The position numbers and the translations under genes are program-made. A DNA stretch of 64,000 nucleotides from Candidatus Methanomethylophilaceae archaeon. GTDB taxonomy: Archaea; Thermoplasmatota; Thermoplasmata; Methanomassiliicoccales; Methanomethylophilaceae. The notes below the pieces were generated by a model. That model did not search any database. It saw only the letters and a program-made list of their open reading frames with translations, and was not told the DNA's origin. Shown one piece after another: positions 9,134 through 64,000 of this stretch (the stretch's first letter is position 1; every line of letters starts with the position of its first letter). The stretch is from assembly GCA_017507885.1 (NCBI GenBank), contig JAFVZY010000117.1, forward strand, positions 1 through 64,000. Direction: 5' to 3'.

Positions 9134-10573
9134 ATGGAGAGGTACATCGCATCCGACCTGAAAGCATGGAAGGAGTCCCCCGACAGGAGACCCCTGATTC
9201 TGAAAGGCGTCCCCCAATGCGGAAAGACACATGTCGCCATGGACTTCGGCATCGGGAATCATATTGACCTCACCTATTTCGACGTTCCGGAACACCCCGA
9301 ACTGGAGGATTCGTTCGAATCCGATGTGGACGACATGTTTCGTGAGATGTCCCTCATCAACGGTACCCCTCCGGGAAACGGCACCCTTCTGGTATTGGAT
9401 CATGTGGAACACTGCGACGGGATATGGGATGCCGTATCGCGGCTCCATCACGGACACCCCGGGATCCACATCATGTGTGTGACATCCAGGGGAGGCCCGA
9501 AGGATGACGACGGATTCGACACGATCGTCATGAGACCCATGTGTTTCGGCGAGTTCGTACTCGCCTGCGGATAGCAGCGCCTGCACCTCGCATTGAAGGC
9601 CATGGAAATCGGCATGAGACCCTCCAAGGCGGACCTGAGGACCCTGGACAGACTCTACATCGACTATCTGATGGTCGGAGGAATGCCGGAAGCCGTACTC
9701 GCCTGGGTCAGGACGGGGGACATGTATCGGGTGGAGGGGATCCACGGAAGGATCATCGACATGTACGAATCCGAAATCCGTGCACATTGCCCCGATCCCG
9801 AACGTGGATTGGATCTGTTGTCATCGGTGCCGATTCAAATGGTGGAACACAAGGGCAGATTCAGACTGTGTGATGCAGGGGGAAGAACCAGCACCCTGTC
9901 CAGGGCGATGGAATGGATGTTGGACTCGGGCATGATTCAACGCTACTGGGGGCTGACCGATTCCGAACACCCTCCGAAACCACGCAAGGGGATCTATTTC
10001 AGACTCCTTCTTTCGGACGTCGGCCTACTGAGCACCATCCTCGGAGCGAACAGAAACCTGTTGACATCCGAAGAGGGCGACCCTTCGGGAATCAAGGATG
10101 CCGTCATCAGGAACTACATCTACAACGAACTGGTCGCATCTCCTGGAAATGGGGAGGGGCCATACTACTGGAGGAACGTCAGGAATCAATCCAATGTGGA
10201 CTTCCTGTTGGATTTCGACGGAGGGATGATCCCCATGGTCATCAGAAGCAGGAAGGGAGGCAGGATCATGAATCTGGAGGCATACTGCAGGAGATACGGA
10301 CCGGATTCGGCGATTGTGACCTCCCGCACCCGCTACAAGAGCATATCGGACGAATGGATCCATGTCCCTCTGTCCCTGGTGGGAAGATTCGACGACATCA
10401 TGAGGGCGGTTCAGAATCCGGGACAATCGATAGATACCCCCTGGACACCTTCTGGCGTCCTCGACACATGCCCGCTGGATACGATGGTCGTCATGAACAT
10501 GGGCGAGGCATGCCTCGACTTCCTGACGAGCTCCTTCAGGGAAAGGAGGTTCCTTATTCCATCCTCCGGCTGA
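9134..10573 (+). pseudogene. DUF4143-type AAA ATPase with one in-frame TAG (pseudogene or UAG read-through)
   Basis: One reading frame of 480 codons with a single TAG at 9572-9574 (codon 147). Walker A is GVPQCGKT (residues 25-32). The region around the TAG (FGEFVLACG, then QRLHLALKAME) matches the same place in the ATPase at 23767, and similarity continues through MVGGMPEAV near residue 175, so the two halves are one gene. In Methanomassiliicoccales UAG can be read as pyrrolysine, but here Walker B has Asp-His instead of Asp-Glu (LLVLDH) and the nuclease ExK site reads IRSRKG, so decay of an unselected gene is at least as likely. The promoter looks intact. Confidence 0.75.
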
Positions 10574-48252: not shown

Positions 48253-48519
48253 TCACAATATGTTTGCCACCTTGCTCAGGTGTTCGGCGACCCTCCGCCC
48301 CTTGTCAGTGAGGTCGAGGAACGTCGCCGAAGAGTCCTCACGGGACTCCATGGTTACGAGTCCCATGGACACCAGGAGCTCCAGCTTCTGGGGCATGCGG
48401 GGGTTCTTGGACACCGCGGGATAGAGCTCCGATTTCTTGCATCCGGGATGATCGCGGATGTAGAGCACGGTGGAGATCACGTGCCTCTCCTCGAGAAGCC
48501 TGATGTCCTCCTTCGACAT
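48253..48519 (-). CDS. Winged-helix transcriptional regulator
   Basis: An 88-residue one-domain wHTH protein. The pattern HVISTVLYIRDHPGCKKSELYPAVSKNPRMPQKLELL (about residues 13-49, quoted in parts: DHPGCKKSELY, then PRMPQKLELL) is that of MarR/PadR-like small archaeal regulators that detect one strand end of a gene with a wing (TDKGRRVAEHL). No ligand domain. It is convergent with the helicase and upstream of the surface-protein genes, and could control either; the target is unknown. Confidence 0.8.
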   Translation of the reverse strand: MSKEDIRLLEERHVISTVLYIRDHPGCKKSELYPAVSKNPRMPQKLELLVSMGLVTMESREDSSATFLDLTDKGRRVAEHLSKVANIL

Positions 48520-48580: not shown

Positions 48581-51418
48581 TCAGGCCTGACTCACGGTCC
48601 AGATGCCATCGTCATTGGTGGCCTTGTAACCGCTAGAAACCCATGCGGAGGGATCGAATCCAAAGGTTCCACCAGTGATGATAATCGTTCCATTGCCGAG
48701 GATACCTGCGGTATAACCTTCCCTGACGGATGCCTTACCGAATTCACCTCCGGTAATGTAAACCGTGGTTCCCTCCCCAGCATATACATATGCACGTTTC
48801 TGATTATCTTTAGGATCCCATGAGAATTTGCCACCATTGATGGTGAGCTCGGAATCGGCACCTTCGAGATAGAACACGTATCTTCCAGATGTGGAGGCGG
48901 TATCCACGTACACGGAACCACTATTGAATGTGGCCTTTGCACCATTCGCGACACCTACCCCTCCACCATTGGATACGATATCCACATCAGTGAATTCTGT
49001 AACAGAACCTCCATAGAGGATGTTTCCATAGGATGTGGCCGAACCTCCAGTTATACTTACTCCCTCGAGAGTGGCATTACCATAGTTTTCGAAAGCCACG
49101 GGACGACCGCTGGCGGTATCGGCGGTTATGGATCCTCCCTTTATACTGACATCACCCTCATTGACAAATCCTACGATATTCAATGAATCCGAAAACGGAT
49201 ACATCATCGGCTTAATGTCGCACTGGACATTATCGATTGTGAGATGTTTGCCTTTAGCCACCTTCACTTCTCCGATGACACCTGCACAATAATCGGTTCC
49301 GCTGGACACGGTGCCGGTGATTTCACAATCCTTGATGGTTATGTTCTTGCCATACGCCGTTCCGTTACCGGCAACCCATGCGGCCCAACCATGATTGACC
49401 GTTGAACCAATGAAACCACCTGCGACATCCGTACCGGTTACGACACCGGAAGCCTTACAACCATTGAAAATTACATCCGTGGTGTAGCCATGCTCGGTGA
49501 GACGACCTGCGAAACCACCAGCGGTGCTTGCAGTCACATCTCCTTTTGCCTCACAGTTGATGTAAGTCACAGTGGAATTGTGGTTTCCTACAAATCCTCC
49601 CGCGATGTTGGAACCAGTGACATCGACATCAGCCACGCAATTGGTGTAGGTCTGCATGGCGTACTCGTAGGTCCTTGCAACGAAACCTCCGACCTTGGCA
49701 TGATAGTTTACAGGGTTGGAACTATCACTGCAACGCTCGACGATCTTACCGGATACGGAACAGTCAATGTATTTTGTGTTGGGACTCTGAGAGGTACCGA
49801 CCACACCTCCGATACGGGTCTCACCGAGATAATCGGTCGTCACATCGAAATCGATTCCAGTGATGTGGACATTGTTAACGGTATGGCCATTGTCACTTCT
49901 CCAGAAGTAACCGATGAGTCCACCCACGAATGCCTCATGGGCATCGACAGTTATCTTGAGATTGTCGATTGTACCATCATTCAGAGTTATGTAACCATAA
50001 TAGGTGTAGGGTGCATAACTGCCTGCAAAAACAGTGTATGCATCAGCCTCGATACTCACATCCCTGACATCGAATGCATCGACTTCAAAAGCCATCCTTG
50101 TATTACCATCATTGCTGATATTCTGACCACACACATAACCATTGATGGCTGCTGCGCGTACTTCATTGCCCTCTGCTTTAGCTACTATATCGAGATCGGA
50201 TACGGAAATCTCCTTCATGTTGGCAGGATAACTGTATCCCACCACACCACCGATCAACGAGGAACCAGACTTGGATTCCGCATTTATGGTCAGATTTTCA
50301 ACATTGATGTTCTCAAAGGCCAATTCAAGAACAAGGGGTGTCGTCTTGTCACTGTCCGCGATACCGACCACGGCGGCAGCACGGACCTTCTTACCGACAA
50401 CATCGATGTTCGAATCGGTAACGGTCAGATTCTTTACGGTTGCATTCTTGATTGCACCGAACAATGCGGCGAACTGATCAGCATCAGGCGTATTTGCTGA
50501 GATGAACATGTTGCTAATCGTATGGTTCTGACCATCGAAATCACCTCTGAAATAATTGGTTGTGCTACCGATGGGGGTCCAGGGGATATTGTTGAGATTG
50601 ATGTCATTGGAAAGCCTGACGGTGACGCCAGCATAATCATTACCAGAGTTAACGTCCTTGGCGAAGGCTGCAAGCTCAGAGGCTTTTTCAATATACATCA
50701 CGTTGTCAGTAATTGCAGGAAGCTGACCCACTAGCCCATTCCAGTAATCGGAATCGTTGAGCTCCTGGGTGATGATGTTGACGACGGAGACGTGGGCGTC
50801 GACGTAACCCTCGGCGTCGCCGAGGTATCCGTCGCCAGACACGGGTTTCTGGGGTGCGTTGTCGAGGATTGTTATGGTGACGAGGACGCGGGCATGCGAG
50901 GCGTAGACCCCGTCGAGGGGGGAAACCTTTGATCCGGGCAGAGGCGTCCATTCGGACAGTTCGACTCCTGAGATGTTCTCCTCCGCGACGGATCCGTTGT
51001 AGGTGAGCGTGACGTCGTCCACGGTCTCGACGCCGACCTCGATCCAGTCGACGTCGGTCTCGACCTGGACCATGTACTTGGAGTAGATGGTGGTGGAGAA
51101 GGTGACGTCGTACTGCAGGAGGTACTTGTCGCGAGGGGCGACGTTGTCGATGTTCGTCATGAGCGAGAGGGAGGTCGCCTCCTTCCCGTTCGCACTGTCG
51201 GTCTGGAGGGGGGTCTCGTCCACGGTGAAGGAACCGGATGCACCGGCCCCGACCCAGTATTCTATCCCTCCAACGTCGACGTCGAGGTTTCCGGTGCCCA
51301 CGGTTATGTCCGTGTTCTCCGAGTCGGACCACCAGGAGTAGGTGACCCCGCTGACGGCGGAGAGGGCGACCGCCATTACCACGAGGGACGCGAGGATCGC
51401 TTTCGTTTGCGCTTTCAT
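48581..51418 (-). CDS. Surface protein A: SipW-type signal, TasA/camelysin-like head, GLUG/beta-helix tail
   Basis: A 945-residue exported protein. The N-terminus (helix to about residue 22, then TYSWWSDSENTDITVGTGNL) is the pattern of SipW-dependent signal peptides, TYAYFTDSxxxxxNTFTxGTLDL in Bacillus TasA. Residues 25-225 form a beta-rich TasA/camelysin-like head ending at NIITQELNDSDYWNG. From about 240 a tail of GLUG-like repeats (FDGQNHTISN, AGGFVGNHN, GGFAGRL) should fold as a right-handed beta-helix of adhesin type. No C-terminal anchor. A GGAAGG sequence lies before the ATG, and the mRNA carries a structured leader. Donor-strand polymerisation of the head is inferred from TasA. Confidence 0.85.
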   Translation of the reverse strand: MKAQTKAILASLVVMAVALSAVSGVTYSWWSDSENTDITVGTGNLDVDVGGIEYWVGAGASGSFTVDETPLQTDSANGKEATSLSLMTNIDNVAPRDKYLLQYDVTFSTTIYSKYMVQVETDVDWIEVGVETVDDVTLTYNGSVAEENISGVELSEWTPLPGSKVSPLDGVYASHARVLVTITILDNAPQKPVSGDGYLGDAEGYVDAHVSVVNIITQELNDSDYWNGLVGQLPAITDNVMYIEKASELAAFAKDVNSGNDYAGVTVRLSNDINLNNIPWTPIGSTTNYFRGDFDGQNHTISNMFISANTPDADQFAALFGAIKNATVKNLTVTDSNIDVVGKKVRAAAVVGIADSDKTTPLVLELAFENINVENLTINAESKSGSSLIGGVVGYSYPANMKEISVSDLDIVAKAEGNEVRAAAINGYVCGQNISNDGNTRMAFEVDAFDVRDVSIEADAYTVFAGSYAPYTYYGYITLNDGTIDNLKITVDAHEAFVGGLIGYFWRSDNGHTVNNVHITGIDFDVTTDYLGETRIGGVVGTSQSPNTKYIDCSVSGKIVERCSDSSNPVNYHAKVGGFVARTYEYAMQTYTNCVADVDVTGSNIAGGFVGNHNSTVTYINCEAKGDVTASTAGGFAGRLTEHGYTTDVIFNGCKASGVVTGTDVAGGFIGSTVNHGWAAWVAGNGTAYGKNITIKDCEITGTVSSGTDYCAGVIGEVKVAKGKHLTIDNVQCDIKPMMYPFSDSLNIVGFVNEGDVSIKGGSITADTASGRPVAFENYGNATLEGVSITGGSATSYGNILYGGSVTEFTDVDIVSNGGGVGVANGAKATFNSGSVYVDTASTSGRYVFYLEGADSELTINGGKFSWDPKDNQKRAYVYAGEGTTVYITGGEFGKASVREGYTAGILGNGTIIITGGTFGFDPSAWVSSGYKATNDDGIWTVSQA

Positions 51419-51448
51419 TTTTCATTCCTTCCTTTAAATAGTTTGGAA

Positions 51449-51542
51449 GGGGTTTGCGTCCCTCGCGGGACGTTTGATGAACAGACCGCGCCCCGCCGTG
51501 GTTTGGAAGATCGGGTGGGGTCTCCGACATCGTGGATGTCGC
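51449..51542 (-). ncRNA. Structured 5' leader of surface gene A
   Basis: A 94-base leader that differs from 58562-58655 at only two positions. On the minus strand it can form, in order, GACATC/GATGTC, AGACCCCGCC with GGCGGGG...GGTCT, and CGTCCC-GCGA-GGGACG. A TATA-like CTTTAATAATG (about 51553-51563) lies upstream, so it is transcribed. It may be a cis-acting RNA or a translation control element. Confidence 0.6.
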
Positions 51543-51567
51543 GGCCTTAAGGAGCATTATTAAAGAA

Positions 51568-51584
51568 ATCCCTCGACGAGGGAT
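51568..51584 (-). terminator. Terminator of surface gene B
   Basis: ATCCCTC-GAC-GAGGGAT is a perfect 7-bp stem, followed on the minus strand by TTTCTTTAAT. It ends gene B; its tail merges with the promoter of gene A. Confidence 0.7.
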
Positions 51585-51701
51585 GTTTGTGTATGAATCT
51601 TGATTATACGGAATGTGCGTGGAAAACCAACCACATTACAATTGTTAATAAAATTGTACATATAGCGGAATCGTTCCCATATGCCGTATCCAATAAAGAC
51701 A

Positions 51702-53420
51702 TCATTTGTTGTTGTAGATCACAGTCACACCGTCATGAGTGGCTGTACCATATGTGCAGTATCTGTCGCCGGTGGATCCACCATAAAGTTGATCGAAGAT
51801 GATCATTTTCTGATGCTCTTCATCCTCATTATGCACATGGTTGACGTCGACAACCGTATTCCCATTGGCATCGATCGGATGACCGTATCTCGGATTGGAA
51901 TACTCGCCTGTGCTGACACCGGCCTGCTCCCTGACCCAGGGATATTCCATGGCTCCGAATTGGCAATAAGTGTAATTCGCCCAATCATCGTATATCACGG
52001 TGACGTTCTCACACGTAAGATACGAAGCGGTTGCGTTACCCACATTATTCCCATCGGGATCATCCATTTGTTCAGAGTCGCCGATCAACATACCGCAACG
52101 GCGATACGAATACCACTCGTATGCAGAGGTGACGTCGTTGAATGCATCGATACGACATGCCACGGTACAATCCTTCATCAGAATTTCAGTATCGGAATCC
52201 GCACTCGCACCACCGATGATGCCACCGCAGGCGTTGTTGAAATCGCCCCACTGTGCCGCAACGGTTGTGGAAGCCTCGACGTTTATGCCGGTGTATGTAT
52301 GCTTTCCGGAAGCGTAACCCACGACGCCACCGGCATGGTACTGGTAGTCAGCAACCTCGGAATTCCTGACCGTAATGTTCTCGAACCTACATTCACCGGA
52401 AGCCACCGCAGCCACGGTTCCGCACAATCCGGATTCACCGGATATGGATGCACCATCCATCACGAGGTTCTTGATGGTGGCGTCCTCAACCTTTCCGAAC
52501 AGACCGAGTCCCAAATCATCATAATAATAACCATTGTCAAGAGCCCATGTATTCTGACTCAAATTGTATATTGTATGGCCTTGTCCATCGAATGTTCCTT
52601 TGAAAGCCAAATCTTTCCTACCAGAACCGATGGGATCGAACAATTCGTTCTGGAGATCCATATCGGATGTCAACACCACGGTTTTACCTTCGAAGGTGTT
52701 TCCACCATCCACAAGTTCCCTGAGACCTGCCAATTGATCCGCAGAATCCAATTCGAATTTGTCATCCGTATCATTGTACCAAGAGACGTCCGAGACACCA
52801 TGCCAGAAGGAAATGTCGTTCATATACTGGGTGATGATGTTGGTGATGGTCATCTTCGAACTTCCCACACCCATATTGAGGGAGTCGATGTTTATGACGA
52901 CCTTGTATGTGACTTCGAGTTTCGTGAAATTGGAGATGTCATCGAGAGAGGCCCATTCGCCCACCTTGACCTCATCAGGGTTTCCAATAGGATTATCCAA
53001 AGACGTAATTGATGATACGTCTCCATTCACATTATCGGGAAAAATGACGTCTATAAGGAATCTGTAATCCAAATCGCTTGTGAATTTCACATTGTACCCG
53101 ATTTCGACATCGGCATCGTCCCCTACATTCCCGGACAATATGAGTTTCGAGACGTCCCCATACCAACCTGTGATGGAGTCCCTGTCCCCATCGTATTCAA
53201 TCGTGAAGGATTCGGGCACATCCATACCTTCATCGGTCAAAACCTGATTCCCCTGTTTGATATAGAATCCGGAGGTGCTCACATCCAGGAATCCGGTGGT
53301 CACGCTTATCTCCGTATTCTCAGAATCGGACCACCATGCACCGGTGACCCCGTATATCATGGAAACGGACATCATGACCACTACCAAGGATGCGATGATC
53401 GCTTTTGTTTGTGATTTCAT
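51702..53420 (-). CDS. Surface protein B: SipW-type signal, TasA-like head, GLUG/beta-helix tail
   Basis: A 572-residue protein with the same architecture as A: a helix, then TGAWWSDSENTEISVTTGFLDV (about residues 25-46), a beta-rich head to about 195 and a tail starting LASDMDL-like VVLTSDMDLQNELFD with FKGTFDGQGHTIYNL (about 285-299). The head is clearly homologous to A, C and D but not near-identical. A strong AAGGAGGG Shine-Dalgarno sits six bases before ATG 53420, unusual among the mostly leaderless genes here. Start is fixed by the signal peptide. Confidence 0.85.
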   Translation of the reverse strand: MKSQTKAIIASLVVVMMSVSMIYGVTGAWWSDSENTEISVTTGFLDVSTSGFYIKQGNQVLTDEGMDVPESFTIEYDGDRDSITGWYGDVSKLILSGNVGDDADVEIGYNVKFTSDLDYRFLIDVIFPDNVNGDVSSITSLDNPIGNPDEVKVGEWASLDDISNFTKLEVTYKVVINIDSLNMGVGSSKMTITNIITQYMNDISFWHGVSDVSWYNDTDDKFELDSADQLAGLRELVDGGNTFEGKTVVLTSDMDLQNELFDPIGSGRKDLAFKGTFDGQGHTIYNLSQNTWALDNGYYYDDLGLGLFGKVEDATIKNLVMDGASISGESGLCGTVAAVASGECRFENITVRNSEVADYQYHAGGVVGYASGKHTYTGINVEASTTVAAQWGDFNNACGGIIGGASADSDTEILMKDCTVACRIDAFNDVTSAYEWYSYRRCGMLIGDSEQMDDPDGNNVGNATASYLTCENVTVIYDDWANYTYCQFGAMEYPWVREQAGVSTGEYSNPRYGHPIDANGNTVVDVNHVHNEDEEHQKMIIFDQLYGGSTGDRYCTYGTATHDGVTVIYNNK

Positions 53421-53457
53421 GTAATTCCCTCCTTGTGTTGGATTGAATTGATTTGAA

Positions 53458-53512
53458 ACCCATCGGGACTGCACCGATTGATACAATCACTATTTTCTAT
53501 GAAACGATGGGT
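53458..53512 (-). promoter_or_regulatory. Inverted-repeat leader of surface gene B
   Basis: ACCCATCG (53458-53465) and CGATGGGT (53505-53512) can close a long stem 40 bases upstream of the Shine-Dalgarno. The sequence is unlike the leaders of A and D. Confidence 0.45.
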
Positions 53513-53527
53513 GTAAAAGGTTTGATT

Positions 53528-53541
53528 CCCTCCGAAGAGGG
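53528..53541 (-). terminator. UUCG-loop hairpin after surface gene C
   Basis: CCCTC-TTCG-GAGGG on the minus strand, 17 bases past the stop of gene C. The UUCG tetraloop makes a very stable stem. Confidence 0.6.
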
Positions 53542-53558
53542 TATTTTTGAGAATCGAA

Positions 53559-56306
53559 TCACTGCACCTCGTTACCATTGATGATCAATTTTCCAGTCGA
53601 ATTTGGTACAAAACGACCATAGAGGTTACTCTGACCGTCAGGTGCAGTCTTATCGCCCTGGGTGAGGGTGTTTCCACTCTCGGTTATGTTGTCGATGGTG
53701 ACCTCTCCGGAATTCGCGGTTCCGACGACGACTCCAACCCTCCATCCGCCGTTATCGGTGGATATCAGTTTGTTCTCCTTGACCGTACAGTCCTTAATGA
53801 TCGTATATGTCCAATCACTGGCACCGGCATGACCGTTGATTCCGCCAACGGAGGAACCGGTGATGGTACACCCTATGACAGAACAATCCTCGATTGTGAC
53901 ATAGGTCTTGACTGGGCCATCATTTTGATTGCTATATCCCGAAGTCCAACCGATTAAACCTCCGGTCCTGCTTCCTGAGACGGTAGAATTGATTAGGTGA
54001 CAGTTGATCAACTCAATTTTATCCATGGAATCGGAAGATTCGATGAATGCACCAGAACCCGTCGCATTGGAGCTCTCGATTGCCGAATCTTTGATTGTCA
54101 GATTCTTAATGACGATTCCGGAACCTCCAGCAAACCCTCCTTTGAAAAGAGGGGCCGTGAGGCCGGTGATGATGTGATTTTTACCGTCGAGCGTGACTAT
54201 GTCCGCACCGTGATACCCATCGACATATATGGGGGTCCAAGAAACACCGGTTAAGTCGATATCTGAATCCAAGGCCAAGAATGTATCCCTGGCCCCTGCA
54301 GAACCAGCTTCGATCAACTTGTTTGCCAGTTCATCCGCAGTGGATATCGAATGAATCATGGTGACTGTGGCACCATCATTTATCTTGCCGACGAAATCGA
54401 CCGACTCGTCGTGGACACGACACGTGTCAATGGTGATTTCATCAACAAGATATTCGCGCGTTCCTGCAGGATACCTGTTATCGTATTTCGGTATGACATC
54501 CTTTATCAGACCGACGAATCCCCCTGCAATGGATCCGGAAACCTGTCCGGAGGCGCTACACGAAGTGTAGACCCCCCTATCCATATCACCTGCAAATCCG
54601 CCTGCACAACCATTCAGATTAGTTACATCACCCGTGGCGGAACAGTTGGTGAATTCTGCATACATGCTGTTGTTGTTAGAATTGGTGGCGCTTCCTACAA
54701 ATCCTCCTGCGGGAGCCCCACCGGAAACGATATCGACATCGGCAGTACAATTCGTAATCGCATGACCCTTCTTTCCCAAGTCGGCATTCCAACCGAGATT
54801 ACCGAAGAACCCGCCTACGAAATTACTTTTACCAGTGACACCTGTGGCATCTATTCTTCCCTGTGTGGTACAATTATCCAATATCGTATGTCCACCAGGC
54901 CAAGCCATGAAACCACCAATATCGATGTTTCCAGTGGCGACGATATCGATTCCTTCGACATCACAGTTGATGAGTTTCGGATCCTCCCAACCCCTTTGAG
55001 TCTGAGTAACAAGGCCTCCGACTCCACATCCATCGGCTGTTGTGTCACTGACCGTTACCTTGAATCCCTTCACATCGAGATTATCGAATACCATGTTGGA
55101 ATTCTTCTGAAGAATAGGTGAAAAACCGGCAATCAAATATGCACCATCGGAAGCATCGACGATCATGTTCTCTACAGTACAGTCTTTCATCCATGGCCAA
55201 TCCATGAAAGCACACATGCCTCCGACCCATGCTGCTGCATCGGTAGTGGTGACATTGACATTCCTCACAGTAACATCATTCACGATACCCTTGACAGAGT
55301 TGGCGAGAGTTCCGAAACGATATGCTCCAACAGTTGCATCGACATCCTCGATGATGAGATCATGGACACGCTCACCCTCACCAGCTTCGATTGTTCTGAA
55401 TAATCCTCCATTTTGTTTTGTGGCATCGACTTTGAAATTGCTGATCGAATGGCCGTTACCATCGAATTCTCCGGAAAAACTCGTGATTGGTGTCCATTCC
55501 AATCCGTTGAGATCGAGATCTGCACCCAATTCAACTTTATATGTCCTGTATTCGGAATTCGAATTTGCATTCACCTTGTCTCTGAACAATGCGAATTCGG
55601 AAGCGGATGTGATATGAAGAGTATTGTTAGCTGCGTCTTCGGAAGTAAATGCAACAGCCGCCTTTCCATCCCATATGGAAACATCGTTCTGGAACTGGGT
55701 GATGTAGTTGTTGATGACTATGAGGGATCCCTCGAGATCCTCCGACAAAGAATCTATCGTGATGGTGACGTCGTAGGAAACTTCAAGAGATACACCATCA
55801 CCGAGCTCGGAATCGTCGAGGTACACCCATTCATTGACGGGAATAGTATCGGGTTCCTCCCCTACTGGGACCACTTCCTTGACAAGTACGGAACCTTCGA
55901 CACCCTCCGGGAATGTGACCCCGATATAATATCTGTAATCGAGATCGCTTATGAACGAGACCCTGTATCCGATTTCTATACAGGCCTGACTGGGATTTCC
56001 TGCTACATACAGTGTACCGACATCGTTGTCGACCCACCATACCCTGTCCATACTCTCGCTCAACCTGACATCGTCGTACACGATGGAGAACTCGCTCGGA
56101 GCCGAATCCGACTCCCCAAACACCTTCGAACTGAGAACATCCTTGATGTAGAATCCTGAAGTAGATGATTCCATGGAACCGGTGGTGACGGTTATCTCCG
56201 TGGATTCCGAATCGGTCCACCAGGAATAGGTTGCTCCGGATACGGTGCAGAGAGCGAGAGCAAGAACCACGAAAGAGGCTGTGATCGCCTTGATGTGAGA
56301 ATTCAT
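53559..56306 (-). CDS. Surface protein C: SipW-type signal, TasA-like head, long GLUG/beta-helix tail
   Basis: A 915-residue exported protein. The signal reads ATYSWWTDSESTEITVTTGSM (about residues 25-45) and the head runs to about 210 (NNYITQFQNDVSIWDG). The tail has at least a dozen GLUG/beta-helix elements (FDGNGHSISNF, AGGFVGSATN, AGGFAGDMD, GGFVGLIK, GGLIGWTSG, GGINGHAG). A weak GGTGG precedes the ATG. It lies 48 bases after gene D with a UUCG hairpin between them, so D and C are probably cotranscribed. Low GC in the tail contrasts with neighbouring metabolic genes. Confidence 0.85.
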   Translation of the reverse strand: MNSHIKAITASFVVLALALCTVSGATYSWWTDSESTEITVTTGSMESSTSGFYIKDVLSSKVFGESDSAPSEFSIVYDDVRLSESMDRVWWVDNDVGTLYVAGNPSQACIEIGYRVSFISDLDYRYYIGVTFPEGVEGSVLVKEVVPVGEEPDTIPVNEWVYLDDSELGDGVSLEVSYDVTITIDSLSEDLEGSLIVINNYITQFQNDVSIWDGKAAVAFTSEDAANNTLHITSASEFALFRDKVNANSNSEYRTYKVELGADLDLNGLEWTPITSFSGEFDGNGHSISNFKVDATKQNGGLFRTIEAGEGERVHDLIIEDVDATVGAYRFGTLANSVKGIVNDVTVRNVNVTTTDAAAWVGGMCAFMDWPWMKDCTVENMIVDASDGAYLIAGFSPILQKNSNMVFDNLDVKGFKVTVSDTTADGCGVGGLVTQTQRGWEDPKLINCDVEGIDIVATGNIDIGGFMAWPGGHTILDNCTTQGRIDATGVTGKSNFVGGFFGNLGWNADLGKKGHAITNCTADVDIVSGGAPAGGFVGSATNSNNNSMYAEFTNCSATGDVTNLNGCAGGFAGDMDRGVYTSCSASGQVSGSIAGGFVGLIKDVIPKYDNRYPAGTREYLVDEITIDTCRVHDESVDFVGKINDGATVTMIHSISTADELANKLIEAGSAGARDTFLALDSDIDLTGVSWTPIYVDGYHGADIVTLDGKNHIITGLTAPLFKGGFAGGSGIVIKNLTIKDSAIESSNATGSGAFIESSDSMDKIELINCHLINSTVSGSRTGGLIGWTSGYSNQNDGPVKTYVTIEDCSVIGCTITGSSVGGINGHAGASDWTYTIIKDCTVKENKLISTDNGGWRVGVVVGTANSGEVTIDNITESGNTLTQGDKTAPDGQSNLYGRFVPNSTGKLIINGNEVQ

Positions 56307-56326
56307 TTTACCACCATAATTGGAGA

Positions 56327-56340
56327 GTGGCCGAAGCCAC
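56327..56340 (-). other. UUCG-loop hairpin between surface genes D and C
   Basis: GTGGC-TTCG-GCCAC on the minus strand in the 48-base gap. Same loop as the hairpin after gene C; it may be a processing or attenuation site rather than a full stop. Confidence 0.5.
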
Positions 56341-56354
56341 CCTTGTTAAAATGA

Positions 56355-58535
56355 TTAGAGATCTGCCTCTACGATGGAACCGGTACCTGAAACATTGTAC
56401 AAATCTTCCATATCTCCGTTCACATTGGTGTTGTTGGAAACATAGATTGTACAATCTACCGAATGAATACCATCCTGATAGACATCCGTGGTGTTGACAT
56501 TGTTTACATCAAAGGTACAGTTTTTAATCTCACCAGGACTGTAAAGCCTTATCACACCATAGGTGCCATTCCCTTTGATGGTACATCCGTCAAAAGTGAC
56601 TTTTTCGGCACCATGACCAATGGCGACCCATCCGACAATGGTACAATTCTTATATGTGATATTTGCACCGTTCAGACCATCGAAATGGATTGCATAAACG
56701 CTGGTTGCTGTGAATGTACAGTTTTCAAACACAAGCGTTCCGTGAGCGTATGCCCATCTCTGAGCATTTCCAGCAGACAGTTCGATATTCTTAACAGTGA
56801 CGTTTTTCAAAGTACTGGTGAGTGTACCCTTGAAAACCACACCAGGCTGACCAATAAGGGTCACTCCTTCAGCAATTGAGTAATTGCTGCTAAAGGTGTA
56901 TTCTCCCTCGGGAACATAAACCGTAGCATTTTTGATTTTCAAAGACTGCTTGACAAAGGAATCCAAATCGTTTTCGGAAAGTCCAGTTGACCTATACTCA
57001 ACGGTTCCAACAACAATATTGGAAGTATCGAGTTTATTATTGACACATTTTCCTACAACATCAGCGACACAAAAATCCTTCTTCTCCTTGTAAGCATCAT
57101 CAACATCGGGCAAGGATCTGTTCACTTTAATGGTATTGATACCTTCTATCGTATTACCCGTCACATGAGTTGCATCGTTGACACAACCTGCAATACAACC
57201 CATGTCACGATATCCGGCGATGTTGACATCTTTCACAACATTGTTGGTAAGGTAATTATTTCCTTCACCACAATAACCAACAATTCCTCCAACTTTATCA
57301 CCATTGTCATAAATGTTGTCGGTTACTTCGTTGGGAGTAGCTGTAAGAAGGGCATTGGTTACCGAACAACCGGTCACAGAACCATATGCATATCCAGCAA
57401 TACCTCCAACATAGTGATTTCCTTCAACTACAACGTCAGAAACTGAAGAGCCAGTAACAAGACCAGTGTTGAATATGGAACCAGCAATAACTGCAGCTCC
57501 ACCAGAAGTGAGTGCATAAACCTTGGCGCCGACGACATTGAGGTTCTCTACTGTACCATTGAGAACACCGAACAGACCAGCAGCCTTGTCGGTCGAATCC
57601 TTTGTTACATTGAGATTATAGATGGTATTGCCCTGACCATCGAAAGTCCCTTTGAACCTATCCTTATCTGAATTGATTCCAAGTCCGATGGGAGTCCAGG
57701 CAATGTTGTTAAGATCGATATCATTGGAGAGCCTCACAGTGATACCGGAATAATCGTTACCGGAGTTGACATCCTTGGCGAAGGCGGCGAGCTCTGCAGC
57801 GGTTTCGATATACATGATTCCGTCAGAAACGGCGGGAACCTGACCCACGAGTCCGTTCCAGATGTCGGAATCGTTAAGCTCCTGGGTGATGATGTTGACG
57901 ATGGAGACGTGGGCGTCGACGTAACCCTCGGCGTCGCCGAGGTATCTGTCGCCGGACACGGGTTTCTGAGGTGCGTTGTCGAGAATAGTGAGAGTAACAA
58001 GGACGCGGGCCTGGGAGGCGTAGACACCGTCGAGGGGGGACACGTCCGAACCGGGCATCGAGGTCCATTCGGACAATTCGACTCCGGAGAGGTTATCCTC
58101 AGCGACGGATCCGTTGTAGGTGAGTGTGACATCGTCCACGGTCTTGACGTCGACCTTGATCCAATCGACGTCGGTCTCGACCTGAACCATGTACTTGGAG
58201 TAGATGGTGGTGGAGAATGTTACATCATACTGCAGGAAATACTGGTCGCGGGGTGCGACATTGTCAATGTTCGTTATGAGCGAGAGGGAAGTCGCATCCA
58301 CACCATTCGCGCTGTCGGTCTGGAGCTGTTTCTCGTTCACGGTGAAGGAACCGGATGCACCGGTTCCTGCCCAATATTTGATTCCTCCAACATCGACGTC
58401 GAGGTTTCCGGTGCCCACGGTGATGTCCGTGTTCTCCGAGTCGGACCACCATGAGTAGGTGACCCCGCTGACCGCGGAGAGGGCGACCGCTATGACCACG
58501 AGGGACGCGAGGATCGCTTTCGTTTGCGCTTTCAT
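56355..58535 (-). CDS. Surface protein D: head near-identical to A, different beta-helix tail
   Basis: A 726-residue exported protein. Residues 1-250 (signal with TYSWWSDSENTDITVGTGNL, head to NDIDLNNIAWTPIG) match protein A at almost every position, and the DNA matches too, including the 5' leader. After that the tails have nothing in common beyond fold: D has a GLUG block (AGYAYGSVTG) and then a pectate-lyase-like beta-helix (NCTFTATSVYAI, DGCTIKGNGTYG). Ends with TAA. It seems to be a head-plus-leader copy joined to another tail by duplication or gene conversion. Confidence 0.85.
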   Translation of the reverse strand: MKAQTKAILASLVVIAVALSAVSGVTYSWWSDSENTDITVGTGNLDVDVGGIKYWAGTGASGSFTVNEKQLQTDSANGVDATSLSLITNIDNVAPRDQYFLQYDVTFSTTIYSKYMVQVETDVDWIKVDVKTVDDVTLTYNGSVAEDNLSGVELSEWTSMPGSDVSPLDGVYASQARVLVTLTILDNAPQKPVSGDRYLGDAEGYVDAHVSIVNIITQELNDSDIWNGLVGQVPAVSDGIMYIETAAELAAFAKDVNSGNDYSGITVRLSNDIDLNNIAWTPIGLGINSDKDRFKGTFDGQGNTIYNLNVTKDSTDKAAGLFGVLNGTVENLNVVGAKVYALTSGGAAVIAGSIFNTGLVTGSSVSDVVVEGNHYVGGIAGYAYGSVTGCSVTNALLTATPNEVTDNIYDNGDKVGGIVGYCGEGNNYLTNNVVKDVNIAGYRDMGCIAGCVNDATHVTGNTIEGINTIKVNRSLPDVDDAYKEKKDFCVADVVGKCVNNKLDTSNIVVGTVEYRSTGLSENDLDSFVKQSLKIKNATVYVPEGEYTFSSNYSIAEGVTLIGQPGVVFKGTLTSTLKNVTVKNIELSAGNAQRWAYAHGTLVFENCTFTATSVYAIHFDGLNGANITYKNCTIVGWVAIGHGAEKVTFDGCTIKGNGTYGVIRLYSPGEIKNCTFDVNNVNTTDVYQDGIHSVDCTIYVSNNTNVNGDMEDLYNVSGTGSIVEADL

Positions 58536-58561
58536 TTTTCATTCCTTCTTTATATCTTGAA

Positions 58562-58655
58562 TGGGTTTGCGTCCCTCGCGGGACGTTTGATGAACAGACC
58601 GCGCCCCGCCGTGGTTTGGAAGATCGGGCGGGGTCTCCGACATCGTGGATGTCGC
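58562..58655 (-). ncRNA. Structured 5' leader of surface gene D
   Basis: Second copy of the leader at 51449-51542 (two differences in 94 bases, one of them in the central stem, where T becomes C and keeps pairing). It lies between the stop of the small gene E and gene D. Confidence 0.6.
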
Positions 58656-58673
58656 AGTCCTTTGGAGAATGAA

Positions 58674-59066
58674 TCAGGGTATGGGAGTAAGGACCAGCGT
58701 CCCTTCAACAAGAAGGGCGGACCCATCGGTCATCTGCAGAATGTTGTCCGAAACAGATGCGTTCTCCTTCACGGAGAATGTGCAATCTGATGAATCCACT
58801 TGGAATTCAATTGATTCACCATTGAAAATGAACGTGGAACCATCCTCACCGACGGATGTCAACGACACGACGGAACCCTCGATGAATATCATACCGCCAT
58901 CAACACTACTGAAGGGGGATGCATTCTGATTGGAACCTGTGACGATGACAACGTCGAGACGTTCGGAATCCGAATACCAGGAATCTGTGACCTCGAAATG
59001 GGTCATCGACAACGATGCCGTTGCAATCACCACCAATACAGCAACGATGCGAACACTACCCTTCAT
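58674..59066 (-). CDS. Small SipW-signal surface protein E
   Basis: A 130-residue exported protein. After an N-terminal helix it reads VTDSWYSDSERLDVVIVTGSN (about residues 27-47), the same SipW-type pattern as A-D, but the head is only about 80 residues and there is no tail. It overlaps the giant gene F by four bases (ATGA), so the two are coupled. By size and position it could be an initiator, cap or adaptor of the fibre; this is inference. Confidence 0.75.
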   Translation of the reverse strand: MKGSVRIVAVLVVIATASLSMTHFEVTDSWYSDSERLDVVIVTGSNQNASPFSSVDGGMIFIEGSVVSLTSVGEDGSTFIFNGESIEFQVDSSDCTFSVKENASVSDNILQMTDGSALLVEGTLVLTPIP

Positions 59067-62000
59067 GAAATCGCCCTCCCCGCACCGGCCTCCAGGTTGA
59101 AAGTCACAGAGGAACCCATCAGTCCGGAATTATCGTTGTCCAGGATGGAAACCGAGACAACTACATCCATACCACTGCCTGGAAGGGTGCCGAGACCGAT
59201 GACACGACCGGACCACAGTTCGGATAATGTCGCAGAATCGACAACGGAACCTCCCGAAACGACCTCGATATTCACATACTCGGCCAACCCGGTGTCCCCC
59301 TTGAGTCCCGCAAGTCTCACGAACGCATCCAGACCGGACGCACCATCGGCCTGTATCCTCAGAGAAAGGGTACGGACGTCGCCAGGGGCCATGTTAGATG
59401 TGTCGAATGGGAAGTCGGTGAGATGGGTGCCATCAGGGACCGTAGAACCGTTGTGCGCCGTGACAAATATGTCTACTCCTCCGACAGGTTGGACAGAAAC
59501 GTTGAATACAGCGGTCTTCACATTGCCCTCGGGGCCGTACGAAACTGTGACAGACTGGACACCGACAGATGTGAACCTGGATGGAGTCAAATCATAGTTG
59601 GTGACGACTATGGATTCCCCATATGAGTAATGGGCGGTGACGACGAGCCCCGTCCTGTCGAACGAATCCCCGACCGTGTAGACCAGGTTCGCATCGGTCG
59701 TGTCCACGGTTATTCCTGTCAGATTCGCAGGATCTCTCTCGAACACCACGGTCAGTTCATGGTCCGATGATACATTGAGAAGGGTGAACGAATCGGATTC
59801 GGAGATCTTCCTTCCATCCAGCAGGGAATGCAACACATGCCATCCGTCGGCTGGGAACAGGTTGAAAACCTGGGAACCGCCAGATTTGACCGACACCATC
59901 CCCGAGGGCTTCACGAGTCCCTCACCTTGGACTGATACCTCGATGACATACAGTCTGATGAACGATACGACCACCGTATGATTGGCATCCATGGATATGG
60001 TGTATGGGGATTGGAACCCTTCCACGACCTTCCCATCTATTTTGACGTGTTCGATTGCATATCTATCGTTAGCTTGAACGTTGAGGTCCACGGTGGAACC
60101 ACGAGAGTATTCGTTGACACCGGATGGTGAGACCCTTCCACCCTCGTTGTGAGTCACGGTCAGGGTCAACGGAATCTCCGAGAACACGGCCTTCACGGTC
60201 GCATCCCTCTTGATCGTGACCTGGAACGAGGTCTGCGCACCGATGGACGAACCGTCGACGAGAACGTCCGCGAGCCTGTACCCGTCGGCGGGGACGACCG
60301 TGAACGACACGGTGGTCCCGTACGCGTACTGCTTGGATGCCGCATCCGAAACGACGTCGCCGACGCCGTGGGTGACGGTTCCGTTCCCGGTCTTCCCCAC
60401 GGTCAGGGTGTGCATGGTCTGCGAGAACACGATCTCCACCGTGTGGTCCGCATCCATGAGGACGGTGAACTGGTTGGACGGGGTCTGCGACTTGCCATCT
60501 ACGACGACCTCCGACAGGTACCATCCCTCCCCGGGGGATGCGGAGATGTTCACATGGGTCCCATGGGGGTATTTTCCGGTCACGGGGGAGTACGAACCCT
60601 CCCCGCTCTTGACGATGGTGAGGGTGTGCTCCGCCTCGACGAAGACCACCTTCACGACATGGTCCGAATCCATCAGGACGTCCAGTTCCGACACCGGACC
60701 CTTCGAGACGCCGTCCAGAAGGACGTTGTCGACGATGCATCCGGAGGAGGGTGTGAAAACCACCTTCACGGAGGTGCCGTCGATGTACCTGTTCGACCCG
60801 TACGGATTCGCGGAACCGGGACCCTCGACGATGACGTTCAACGTCCGACTCTTGACCGGTTCGATCTCCTCGAACGCCACGGAGACAGTGTGGTCCGCGA
60901 GCATCGTGAAGTCCACGGACGTGGCGTTCTGAACGGCATTCCCATCCAGCTTGAGCTCGGCGACCCTCCAACCCTCGTCGGGGGTGGCCACGAAGTGGAT
61001 CTCCGTGCCGTACGCGTACCCGCCGGCCGGATGGGACGCCGTTCCGTTTCCGGTGACGTCGACGGTCAGGCGGAACTCGATCTGCGAGAACACGACCTCG
61101 ACATCGAGGTCCCCCGTCATCGTCACGGTGAAGATCTCGGATGCCCCGATGGACCCGCCGTCCAGGAGGACGTCGGAGACCTCCCAGCCGATGGCGGGGA
61201 TCGCACGGATGGTCACCCTGGTATCATGCACATACCTTCCGCCGGCGGGATCCACCGAACCGGAACCGGAGTGCGACACCGACAGGGTGTACTCGTACTG
61301 CCTGAAGACCACGTGCACCCTGTGGTCGTCGACGACGGTGAATTTCCTGTCGTCGTCCTCCACGTCGTCGACGGAGAACGAATGGACGTACCATCCCTCC
61401 TTCGGGACGACGACGAACGACAGTTCGGTCCCGTGCAGGTGGTCGTCGGTGGAGGGCGTGACGGTTCCGCTGCCCTCCCGGGTGACGGTGACGGTGTGCG
61501 ACATCTGCGAGAATGTCACGGTGACTCTGTGGTCGCCCTTCATGACGACCGTGCGGGCGTCGAAATCGACGCCGTCGATCCTGAATTCCGTGAGCTCCCA
61601 GCCCTCGTCGGGGACGACGGTGACACCCACGGACGTGCCGTGGGTGTAGCTTCCACCGGCAGGGGTCAGCGTGACGGTCCCCTTCCCGGTCTTCTCCACG
61701 GTCAGGGTGTACACGGACTCGACGAAAGTCACATGGACGGTGTGGTCGCGATCCATGACTATTTCTAACTGGGTGATGGCACCCTTCGAGACCCCGTCCA
61801 CCTTGAAGTCGGAGACCTCCCAGCCGGTGGCGGGGGTCGCAACGACGGTGACCCTGGAACCCGTGTCGTGACGGGTCTCGCCCGCGGGGGCGACGGTTCC
61901 CGTTCCGACGGACGACGTCTTCAGGACGTTCTCAGTCGCCGGAGGGGTCTGTTCGGTGAACACCACGTGGACGGTGTGATCCCCATCCATGACGATCTCG

Positions 62001-64000
62001 AACTGTGCGATCGCACCCTTGGAGACCCCGTCGACCCTGAAATCCTCGACGGTGTTGCCGGATGCCTCGACGGTCACCACGGTTCCGTGGTCGAACAGCG
62101 TGGAACCGCCGTTGGTCACGGTTCCGATCCCCTCGGAGGTTACGGTCAGGGTGTGCTTCTCCCTGACGAACTCCACCTCGACGGTGTGATCGTCGTCCAT
62201 GGTCACGGTGAACTGTGGGACCGCACCCTTGGAGACCCCGTCGACCTTTATCGCGGAGACCTCCCAGCCGGTGTCGGGTGTGGCGGTCACGGTGACCTGC
62301 GCACCGTCCGTATGCTGGGAGGAACCCAGGTTCGTCACGGTTCCGTTACCGGATTTGACGACGGTCAGGGTGTGCACGACCTCCGTGAAGGTCACATCGA
62401 CCGCATGGTCGCGGTCCATCGTCACCGTGTACTGCATCCTCGCACCCTTGGACTCGCCGTCCACGAGGATGTCAGACACCCTCCAACCGTCGGAGGGGGT
62501 CGCCGTGACGGTGACCCTCTGGTTGTACCCGTACTCCCCGCCCGAAGGGTCGAGGGACACGGTTCCGTCCCCCGTCTTCGTCACGGAGAGGGTGTAGACG
62601 GGTTGTGTGAATGTGATCTGGACCGTGTGGTCGCGGTCCATGGTGATGGCATACTGGGTGACCGCACCCTTGGAGACGCCGTCGACCTTGAAATCGGAGA
62701 CCTCCCAGCCGGTGGCGGGGGTCGCACGGACGGTCACGGTGGTCCCGTGCACGTAGCCGTTGGTTCCGTCGGGGGACGCCGAACCGGAACCCTGCGTGTT
62801 CACCGTCAGGGTGTGCCTGATCTGCGAGAACACCACCTCCACGGTGTGGTCGCGGTCCATGGTTACGGACACCTCGTCGTCCGCACCCTTGGAGACGCCG
62901 TCGACCTTCACATCGGAGAGTTCCCAACCGGAATCCGGCGTGGCTGTGACGGTCACGACGGTTCCGTGGGCATAGGAGTTGATTCCAGAGGGCGAGACCG
63001 TTCCGGATCCCGTCTTCGAAACCGTCAGCGTCTTGGACGGTTCGGGCTGCTGCGTTTGCACGAACACCACCAGGACCGTGTGGTCCGCATCCATCGTGAT
63101 TGTATACTGGGTGATCGCACCCTTGGAGACGCCGTCGACCTTGAGATCGGAGACCTCCCAGCCGGTTGCCGGGGTTGCGGAGATGTTCACGGTGGAACCC
63201 TCGTCGAACTGCCTCGTGGAGGGCGATACGGAACCCTCCCCCTGCTTCAGGACGGTGAGGGTGTGGGTCACCCTGGAGAAGGTGACGTCCACGGTGTGGT
63301 CGGCATCCATGACGACCTCGAACTGGGTGATCGCACCCTTGGAGACGCCGTCTACCTTGAAGTCCGAGACCCTCCAGCCGTCGGAGGGGGTGGCGGTCAC
63401 GGTGACGACGGTTCCCACGGGATATGCCGTGCTGGAACCGGGCGTGACGGAGCCCATTCCCGAGGAGGACACCGTCAGGGTCTTCTGGGAGACGGGGGGT
63501 GCTACGCCCGCGAAGGTGACGACCACGACGTGGTCGGCATCCATGGTTATCGTGAACTGCAAGACCGCGCCCTTGGAGACGCCGTCGACCTTGAAGTCGG
63601 AAACAATCCAACCGTCGGAGGGGGTGGCGTTGAGGGTCACGGTGCTTCCGTGAACGTACTCGTTGGTTCCGCTGGGGGTGACCGAACCGGAACCCTGCGT
63701 GTTGACCGTCAGGGTGTGCCTGATCTGCGAGAACACCACCTCGACGGTGCGGTCGCCGTTCATGACGACCAGGTATTGCGTGACGGCACCCTTGGAGGAG
63801 CCGTTCACCTTGAAATCTGAGACCTCCCAACCGTCATCGGGGGTCGCCGTGACGGTGACGGTCTCGCCATAACCGTATGTCCCGTTGCCGGGGGACACCG
63901 TTCCGTTCCCGCTGTGGGAGACGGTCAACGACACGGGTACAGGGGTGAAGACCACGGTCACGGTGTGATCGGAATCCATGGTCACCGTCAACCAGGACGA
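59063..64000 (-). CDS. Giant repeat protein F with at least 19 InlB-B-like repeats (5' end outside window)
   Basis: 1645 residues are visible and the frame is open at the window edge. From the N-terminal side come at least 19 repeats of 70-80 residues, most with the core TPxxGWEVSDFKVDGVSKGA and ending DADHTVEVVFS, the divergent InlB B-repeat type. Repeats near the edge are most alike and those toward the C-terminus drift. Then follow a Big_3-like Ig domain (LTGITVDTTDANLVYTVGD) and a C-terminal TasA-like strand region (PGDVRTLSLRIQADG). It is probably a long stalk or adhesin on the cell surface. Coupled to E. Confidence 0.85.
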   Translation of the reverse strand, partial: SSWLTVTMDSDHTVTVVFTPVPVSLTVSHSGNGTVSPGNGTYGYGETVTVTATPDDGWEVSDFKVNGSSKGAVTQYLVVMNGDRTVEVVFSQIRHTLTVNTQGSGSVTPSGTNEYVHGSTVTLNATPSDGWIVSDFKVDGVSKGAVLQFTITMDADHVVVVTFAGVAPPVSQKTLTVSSSGMGSVTPGSSTAYPVGTVVTVTATPSDGWRVSDFKVDGVSKGAITQFEVVMDADHTVDVTFSRVTHTLTVLKQGEGSVSPSTRQFDEGSTVNISATPATGWEVSDLKVDGVSKGAITQYTITMDADHTVLVVFVQTQQPEPSKTLTVSKTGSGTVSPSGINSYAHGTVVTVTATPDSGWELSDVKVDGVSKGADDEVSVTMDRDHTVEVVFSQIRHTLTVNTQGSGSASPDGTNGYVHGTTVTVRATPATGWEVSDFKVDGVSKGAVTQYAITMDRDHTVQITFTQPVYTLSVTKTGDGTVSLDPSGGEYGYNQRVTVTATPSDGWRVSDILVDGESKGARMQYTVTMDRDHAVDVTFTEVVHTLTVVKSGNGTVTNLGSSQHTDGAQVTVTATPDTGWEVSAIKVDGVSKGAVPQFTVTMDDDHTVEVEFVREKHTLTVTSEGIGTVTNGGSTLFDHGTVVTVEASGNTVEDFRVDGVSKGAIAQFEIVMDGDHTVHVVFTEQTPPATENVLKTSSVGTGTVAPAGETRHDTGSRVTVVATPATGWEVSDFKVDGVSKGAITQLEIVMDRDHTVHVTFVESVYTLTVEKTGKGTVTLTPAGGSYTHGTSVGVTVVPDEGWELTEFRIDGVDFDARTVVMKGDHRVTVTFSQMSHTVTVTREGSGTVTPSTDDHLHGTELSFVVVPKEGWYVHSFSVDDVEDDDRKFTVVDDHRVHVVFRQYEYTLSVSHSGSGSVDPAGGRYVHDTRVTIRAIPAIGWEVSDVLLDGGSIGASEIFTVTMTGDLDVEVVFSQIEFRLTVDVTGNGTASHPAGGYAYGTEIHFVATPDEGWRVAELKLDGNAVQNATSVDFTMLADHTVSVAFEEIEPVKSRTLNVIVEGPGSANPYGSNRYIDGTSVKVVFTPSSGCIVDNVLLDGVSKGPVSELDVLMDSDHVVKVVFVEAEHTLTIVKSGEGSYSPVTGKYPHGTHVNISASPGEGWYLSEVVVDGKSQTPSNQFTVLMDADHTVEIVFSQTMHTLTVGKTGNGTVTHGVGDVVSDAASKQYAYGTTVSFTVVPADGYRLADVLVDGSSIGAQTSFQVTIKRDATVKAVFSEIPLTLTVTHNEGGRVSPSGVNEYSRGSTVDLNVQANDRYAIEHVKIDGKVVEGFQSPYTISMDANHTVVVSFIRLYVIEVSVQGEGLVKPSGMVSVKSGGSQVFNLFPADGWHVLHSLLDGRKISESDSFTLLNVSSDHELTVVFERDPANLTGITVDTTDANLVYTVGDSFDRTGLVVTAHYSYGESIVVTNYDLTPSRFTSVGVQSVTVSYGPEGNVKTAVFNVSVQPVGGVDIFVTAHNGSTVPDGTHLTDFPFDTSNMAPGDVRTLSLRIQADGASGLDAFVRLAGLKGDTGLAEYVNIEVVSGGSVVDSATLSELWSGRVIGLGTLPGSGMDVVVSVSILDNDNSGLMGSSVTFNLEAGAGRAIS

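Follow-up and report, generated by a model that had tools for sequence, protein, structure and literature searches.

A candidate TasA-derived surface-adhesin module with a giant B-repeat protein in a gut Methanomassiliicoccales genome

Gene organization of the locus

The window, i.e., the whole 64,000-nucleotide stretch analysed in this study, corresponds to bases 1-64000 of the 64,694-base contig C92 of a 1.64-Mb, 89%-complete MAG consisting of 135 contigs. Five consecutive co-directional genes (A-E) are located downstream of a giant repeat gene, all on the minus strand. The gene order on this strand is giant repeat gene (its 5′ end is off the contig), E, D, C, B, A, and a small winged-helix gene, and the intergenic gaps are -4 (giant/E), 138 (E/D), 48 (D/C), 138 (C/B), 283 (B/A), and 61 nt (A/winged-helix). 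The features are as follows.

48253..48519, minus strand: small protein of 88 aa with a winged helix, immediately 3′ of A; may act as a local regulator
48581..51418, minus strand: gene A, 945 aa; SipW-type signal, head, and GLUG/beta-helix-type tail
51419..51542, minus strand: leader of A; noncoding stretch that could form three hairpins, with homologues in the D leader and in the leader of a C118 gene
51702..53420, minus strand: gene B, 572 aa; borderline SipW-type signal, head, and beta-helix-type tail
53559..56306, minus strand: gene C, 915 aa; SipW-type signal, B-type head, and GLUG/M26_N-type tail
56355..58535, minus strand: gene D, 726 aa; SipW-type signal, A-type head, and GLUG/pectate-lyase-like tail
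58536..58655, minus strand: leader of D; homologues are the A leader (93%) and the leader of the C118 gene (89%)
58674..59066, minus strand: gene E, 130-aa mini-protein; SipW-like N-terminus and a beta-rich domain of ~90 residues
59063..64000, running on to the contig end at 64694, minus strand: giant B-repeat protein, of which the window covers the C-terminal 1645 aa; stalk/anchor candidate
59066..59527, minus strand: TasA-like C-terminal domain of the giant, without a donor segment of its own; candidate acceptor

Besides this locus on contig C92, the MAG has two paralogous clusters, on contigs C118 and C35, and the order giant, mini-protein, and tailed heads was found in all three. In the preliminary description made from the DNA letters, E was coupled to the giant; the ATG of E overlaps the stop codon of the giant gene, and the same 4-nt overlap is present in C118, C35, and the related genome G087. 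A 2350-aa open frame with B-repeats on another contig (G000:C22, around 2726-3067) is apparently a further adhesin unlinked to the three clusters. The winged-helix protein gave weak EarA/HTH_27/ArnR1-like matches, all below the cut-offs. A homologous stretch (283 nt, 71% DNA identity) lies 3′ of the heads in the C35 cluster (L024, about 9964-10228). Two of the three clusters have such a winged-helix gene after their heads, and it is a possible local regulator.

A and D are near-copies over 975 bp (87% DNA identity), which run from ~120 nt before the start codon through the heads and into the first part of the tails (residue ~283); after this point the two are unrelated. By this comparison, the two genes appear as a head-plus-leader cassette with exchanged tails. 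A stretch of ~120 nt with three potential hairpins is common to the leaders of A, of D, and of the head gene that comes first in C118 (L023 11440-11562); two compensatory pair changes were observed in the C118 copy and one broken pair in A. The purine-rich AAGAAGGAATGAAAA precedes the ATG in all three leaders. Elsewhere in the genome, the leader was not found except for its 3′ end before the second C118 gene, and an Rfam scan of the locus gave no match.

The four tails had been described as GLUG or beta-helix type, and the domain searches bore this out: GLUG was over the cut-off in the D tail, and weaker matches were obtained for GLUG in C and for IgA-peptidase-type (M26_N) or pectate-lyase-like domains in B, C, and D, those of GLUG and M26_N in the C tail falling just under the cut-offs. 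The GLUG part of the D tail (56355-58535) has relatives with about 30-40% identity in gut phage records, indicating that this tail type is common to archaeal adhesins and phages of gut bacteria. In relatives of the MAG, the same tails are carried by proteins with an ordinary N-terminal membrane segment (sometimes together with a B-repeat) or with an ordinary signal. A-D contain no strongly hydrophobic stretch after the signal and hence no other visible anchor. Therefore, if the signal is cleaved, these proteins would need a partner to stay on the cell.

SipW-type signals, head domains, and the giant protein

We searched for SipW-type signals using the NCBI model TIGR04088 (cut-off 19). A, C, and D passed with 22.5, 23.1, and 25.3 bits, respectively, and B was borderline (14.4 bits alone and 19.5 bits with its neighbours in the frame). 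E gave no match to the model; it carries VTDSWYSDSE, in which W, S, and D are invariant across four aligned mini-proteins. The SipW-type signal attributed earlier to all five genes is thus firm for A, C, and D, borderline for B, and, in E, present only as a motif. The whole MAG contains eight TIGR04088 matches, all inside the clusters on C92, C118, and C35. In the alignment of heads A-D, the signal is followed by a first-strand motif (SxFSDxE...GxLDV), so that the donor-like segment is conserved beyond the hydrophobic core.

The camelysin model PF12389 matched A-D with 17.8, 17.6, 13.1, and 17.5 bits, respectively, against a gathering score of 22.5 and over the first ~50 residues only. We also compared head profiles using hhalign and our own profile test, whose Z values are relative to column shuffles with a reversed control. 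With the signal and first strand included, the A/D and B/C heads matched related heads at 99% in hhalign. The A/D heads were similar to the B/C heads (Z 10.2), the B/C heads to the tailed heads of other genomes (Z 7.7; 23.2 bits vs 17.4 reversed), and the latter to the C-terminus of the giant (85%, Z 12.5). In contrast, the A/D heads did not beat the reversed control against related heads (21.4 vs 20.7) and had no signal-free similarity to canonical TasA (Z 0.2). A PDB sequence search with the head and giant profiles gave no relevant match. These profile comparisons tie the A-D heads firmly to TasA only through the signal and first strand; beyond this region the tie is transitive and weakest at A/D. 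A-D thus likely belong to the TasA family (NF046066/PF12389), by an indirect route. The TasA/camelysin-like heads proposed for these four genes hold for the signal and first strand, but PF12389 stayed below its cut-off and A/D showed no signal-free resemblance to canonical TasA.

AlphaFold models of the D head (pLDDT 50, pTM 0.52; shallow alignment of 4 sequences) and B head (pLDDT 71, pTM 0.69; 5 sequences) were beta-sandwiches of low to moderate confidence with an unpaired donor-like N-terminal segment (first 19-36 residues); the alignments were drawn from the window sequences and one related locus. In the B model, strands begin at residue 20 and the first 19 residues are unpaired. This is how a lone donor-strand subunit would look; however, such a free N-terminus is weak evidence because N-terminal segments are often disordered in shallow-alignment models. 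Foldseek searches with both models found no TasA, CalY, or AbpA among the best 50 matches, and none of these matches was below E 0.01. Donor-strand pilins listed for the D head (4hji, 7pnb, 5iqo, and 1n12) were rejected as evidence (E >= 0.016, probability <= 0.4). A TasA-like fold of the heads would be compatible with a beta-sandwich and a free N-terminal strand at pLDDT 50 and 71, but neither model had TasA or AbpA as a structural match. Outside the window, several tailed heads possess a second domain that ends in a T-x-HFSxY/F motif (L023 5952-11439, L024 6028-9954, and the head genes of L046, L048, and L050), and none of A-D has this motif. We take it to be reminiscent of the HFS self-cleavage sites of ZU5-type domains.

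The giant protein contains 17 Flg_new_2 (PF18998) stretches and Big_3; the giant of genome G112 has MBG repeats instead of PF18998. The start of the window giant is off the contig, and an N-terminal transmembrane segment was found in a giant fragment on contig C54 of the MAG and in the homologues of G078, G112, G087, and G115. The C-terminus of the giant was compared with canonical archaeal TasA with no signal involved, and the two matched at 94.5% over 111 columns in hhalign (Z 13.9 in our test). The earlier assignment of a TasA-like C-terminus is upheld by this result, and by sequence comparison this domain is the best-supported TasA-like domain of the system. It has the TasA core and is preceded by Big_3 at the position where the donor segment would be, suggesting that it could accept but not donate a strand.

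E aligned with the heads in the signal/first-strand region only, and the rest of the protein is beta-rich. The earlier view of E as a head-only mini-protein was rejected on this ground. Judged from its sequence, E appears more TapA-like (a putative donor strand on a small beta domain) than head-only, and it is a candidate for a TapA-like initiator or cap.

SipW-like peptidase and co-occurrence of the gene set

The preliminary description had made its proposal depend on the presence of a SipW-class signal peptidase in the genome. Two close copies of a SipW-like peptidase were found in the MAG, both at contig ends (C54:23000-23608 and C14:1-591), and directly after the C54 copy begins a B-repeat giant whose N-terminus contains a membrane segment. 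The catalytic Ser-His-Asp is conserved, and SGSM, VTHRI, and GDS..DD are invariant in the alignment. The best model for this peptidase was Bacillus SipW (NF046067; 67.6 bits, E 9.8e-19) compared with 53.7 bits for an archaeal SPase model, the former score being below the Bacillus equivalog cut-off of 190. Since ER-type signal peptidases are normal in archaea, the class of the peptidase alone proves little, and more weight goes to its linkage and co-occurrence.

In the window's own MAG, the peptidase is tied to the clusters by contig-end position only; the window contig has no peptidase gene, and no suffix-prefix overlap was found between C54 or C14 and C92, C118, or C35. In G078 (a complete genome) and G112 (SIG6), the peptidase gene is directly upstream of the giant gene, followed contiguously by a tailed head. 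These are the smallest versions of the operon, with one giant and one tailed head, and there is no E between the two. In G087, an overlap of exactly 141 nt between two contigs joins peptidase, giant, mini-protein, and head; the two contigs of G115 showed no overlap. The peptidase gene and the giant gene, and likewise the giant gene and the mini-protein gene, abut or have an overlap of a few bases. The G078 operon has insertion-sequence-like genes on both sides as judged by eye (L046 13213-13902 and 18618-19208), which suggests mobility.

The peptidase subfamily (E<1e-80; next best 6.5e-28) was found in five of 102 family genomes (G000, G078, G087, G112, and G115), the tailed heads in the same five (a sixth head match, in G032, was marginal at 6e-4), and, among 147 genomes of the order, the giant's C-terminal domain in these five and nowhere else; the queries are found by construction, the information being in the absence elsewhere, and the five carriers represent two genera with kinship uncorrected. 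The set is wholly present or wholly absent in related gut genomes, as expected of a transferable colonisation module. No canonical tail-less TasA (190-250 aa) was found beside the system in the five carrier genomes, and SipW-signal proteins over the threshold were frames of ~590-1370 aa in the carriers compared with ~200-380 aa in other genomes of the phylum. A fibre in these organisms would therefore bear a tail on every subunit.

A search of genome contigs with the peptidase alignment gave three loci, under the names RGIG4274 (roe deer colon), SIG6, and RGIG5541 (sheep colon). The peptidase region of G087, which belongs to the same genus as the window's MAG, is the same as that of 'Candidatus Methanomethylophilaceae archaeon RGIG4274' from roe deer colon, indicating that the MAG is a gut Methanomassiliicoccales genome. 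The peptidase alignment had no match in viral contigs, and thus there was no sign of viral origin. The head alignment matched neither genome contigs nor viral contigs.

Proposed assembly and comparison with known systems

Each subunit of a TasA fibre is completed by the free N-terminal strand of a neighbouring subunit, and TapA gives the first strand while its own domain is complete (PMC9674648, PMC10151520). In TasA, which is cut by SipW, an ER-type enzyme, the P2′ residue is phenylalanine (PMC10269814). We propose, as an even call, that the genes described here constitute a TasA-derived surface-adhesin module with a dedicated peptidase, a membrane stalk, and donor-strand joining. The dedicated SipW-class peptidase would cut the signals of A-E just before the aromatic donor segment (...TYS↓WWSDSEN..., a site inferred from TasA) and free the N-terminal strand. 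This site would have aromatics at P1′ and P2′. The giant would be held by its N-terminal transmembrane segment, extended by the B-repeats, and terminated by an acceptor-only TasA-like domain. Heads A-D would donate their strands to a following head or the giant, and this would tether the otherwise anchorless adhesins; the tails would display interchangeable GLUG/beta-helix adhesin domains. E may start or cap the chain as TapA does; the C-terminal domain of the giant would be the natural membrane-side end of the chain and E the other end.

Whether this module polymerises is a further step. A heteropolymeric donor-strand fibre, in which each subunit bears a large exchangeable beta-helix tail and which has a giant-stalk anchor and its own SipW peptidase, is a possibility that we hold tentatively. 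A precedent comes from B. cereus, in which two TasA paralogues form heteropolymers and a third protein is chaperone-like (PMC13082335). Donor-strand fibres in archaea also include the Sulfolobus thread, which is unrelated (PMC11607397). Such a fibre, with a large adhesin tail on every subunit in a gut-type methanogen, would be new if true.

A rather unlikely arrangement is a stalk and adhesin without polymerisation, in which the strand of a head plugs into the end of one giant to give a 1:1 membrane-anchored pair and E occupies or primes the site. The minimal operons of G078 and G112, the strength of the TasA-like match at the giant's C-terminus, and the lack of a tail-less fibre subunit in the carrier genomes all suit this arrangement, but four heads per operon would compete for one acceptor, and related TasA proteins polymerise (PMC9674648). 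It is doubtful that A-D are independent secreted or membrane-held adhesin-like proteins, with the SipW-type segment serving as a signal or uncleaved anchor and the heads as spacer beta-sandwiches. Although the same tails on N-terminally membrane-held adhesin-like proteins are common in relatives and the head models lack a TasA match, two observations argue against this explanation: they occur either together with a dedicated SipW-like peptidase and a giant that has a TasA-like end or not at all, and the donor-like segment is conserved past the hydrophobic core. It is very improbable that the locus is an ordinary fibre operon of the archaeal TasA/bundling-pilus kind in which the tails are minor decoration: canonical tasA-sipW operons do exist in the same order, but no TasA-sized subunit was found in the five genomes and their SipW-signal frames are far longer.

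The proposed module resembles the Bacillus tapA-sipW-tasA and B. cereus sipW-tasA/calY/capP loci (PMC9674648, PMC10151520, PMC13082335) in its dedicated ER-type peptidase, SipW-type signals with aromatics after the cleavage point, several TasA-like proteins per locus, and small accessory protein with a donor-like N-terminus. In contrast, the subunits here carry beta-helix tails of 350-1100 residues, the heads are far diverged, and the accessory/anchor roles would be split between the mini-protein and the giant membrane-anchored B-repeat protein with its TasA-like end. The bundling pili of Pyrobaculum, built from AbpA (work of Wang et al. 2022 as described in PMC9674648 and PMC10151520), are donor-strand fibres of an archaeal TasA relative, a likeness to the system proposed here. 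The window head models differ in having had no structural match to AbpA among the best 50 Foldseek matches. The AbpA subunit is small and tail-less.

The imaged strain of M. alvi, Mx-05, showed no S-layer and has unexplained surface fibrils of up to 300 nm (PMC10673518), tentatively ascribed to Flg_new/B-repeat adhesin-like proteins. These proteins share the repeat family of the giant and the same kind of tails; however, they are described as membrane-bound single proteins, and no SipW-type peptidase or TasA-domain coupling is mentioned for them. Our literature search, which was incomplete and did not extend to long Gram-positive SipW-signal proteins, retrieved no tailed TasA-like heads, no SipW-type processing in Methanomassiliicoccales, and no B-repeat protein ending in a TasA domain. 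The operon is a concrete gene set for how gut Methanomassiliicoccales could build or anchor surface fibres or displayed adhesins, and the proposed module would carry the TasA/SipW principle beyond matrix fibres, into the modular display of adhesins.

Canonical tasA-sipW operons were found in other families of Methanomassiliicoccales, in which a TasA of 190-240 aa adjoins a SipW-like peptidase gene. PF12389 was well over its cut-off in the three canonical archaeal TasA proteins scanned. These operons share the order of archaea, the SipW-type signal, and the adjacent SipW-like peptidase with the present system; unlike the window locus, their subunits are tail-less, no giant stalk was seen, and the peptidase belongs to another subfamily. 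Compact three-gene operons in other families of the order (L055, L060, L056, and L062) consist of a tasA-like gene, a sipW-like gene, and a gene for a third protein. The third protein has a signal-like N-terminus (ASASYFDSE, FAIFYDTE) and may be a further SipW substrate.
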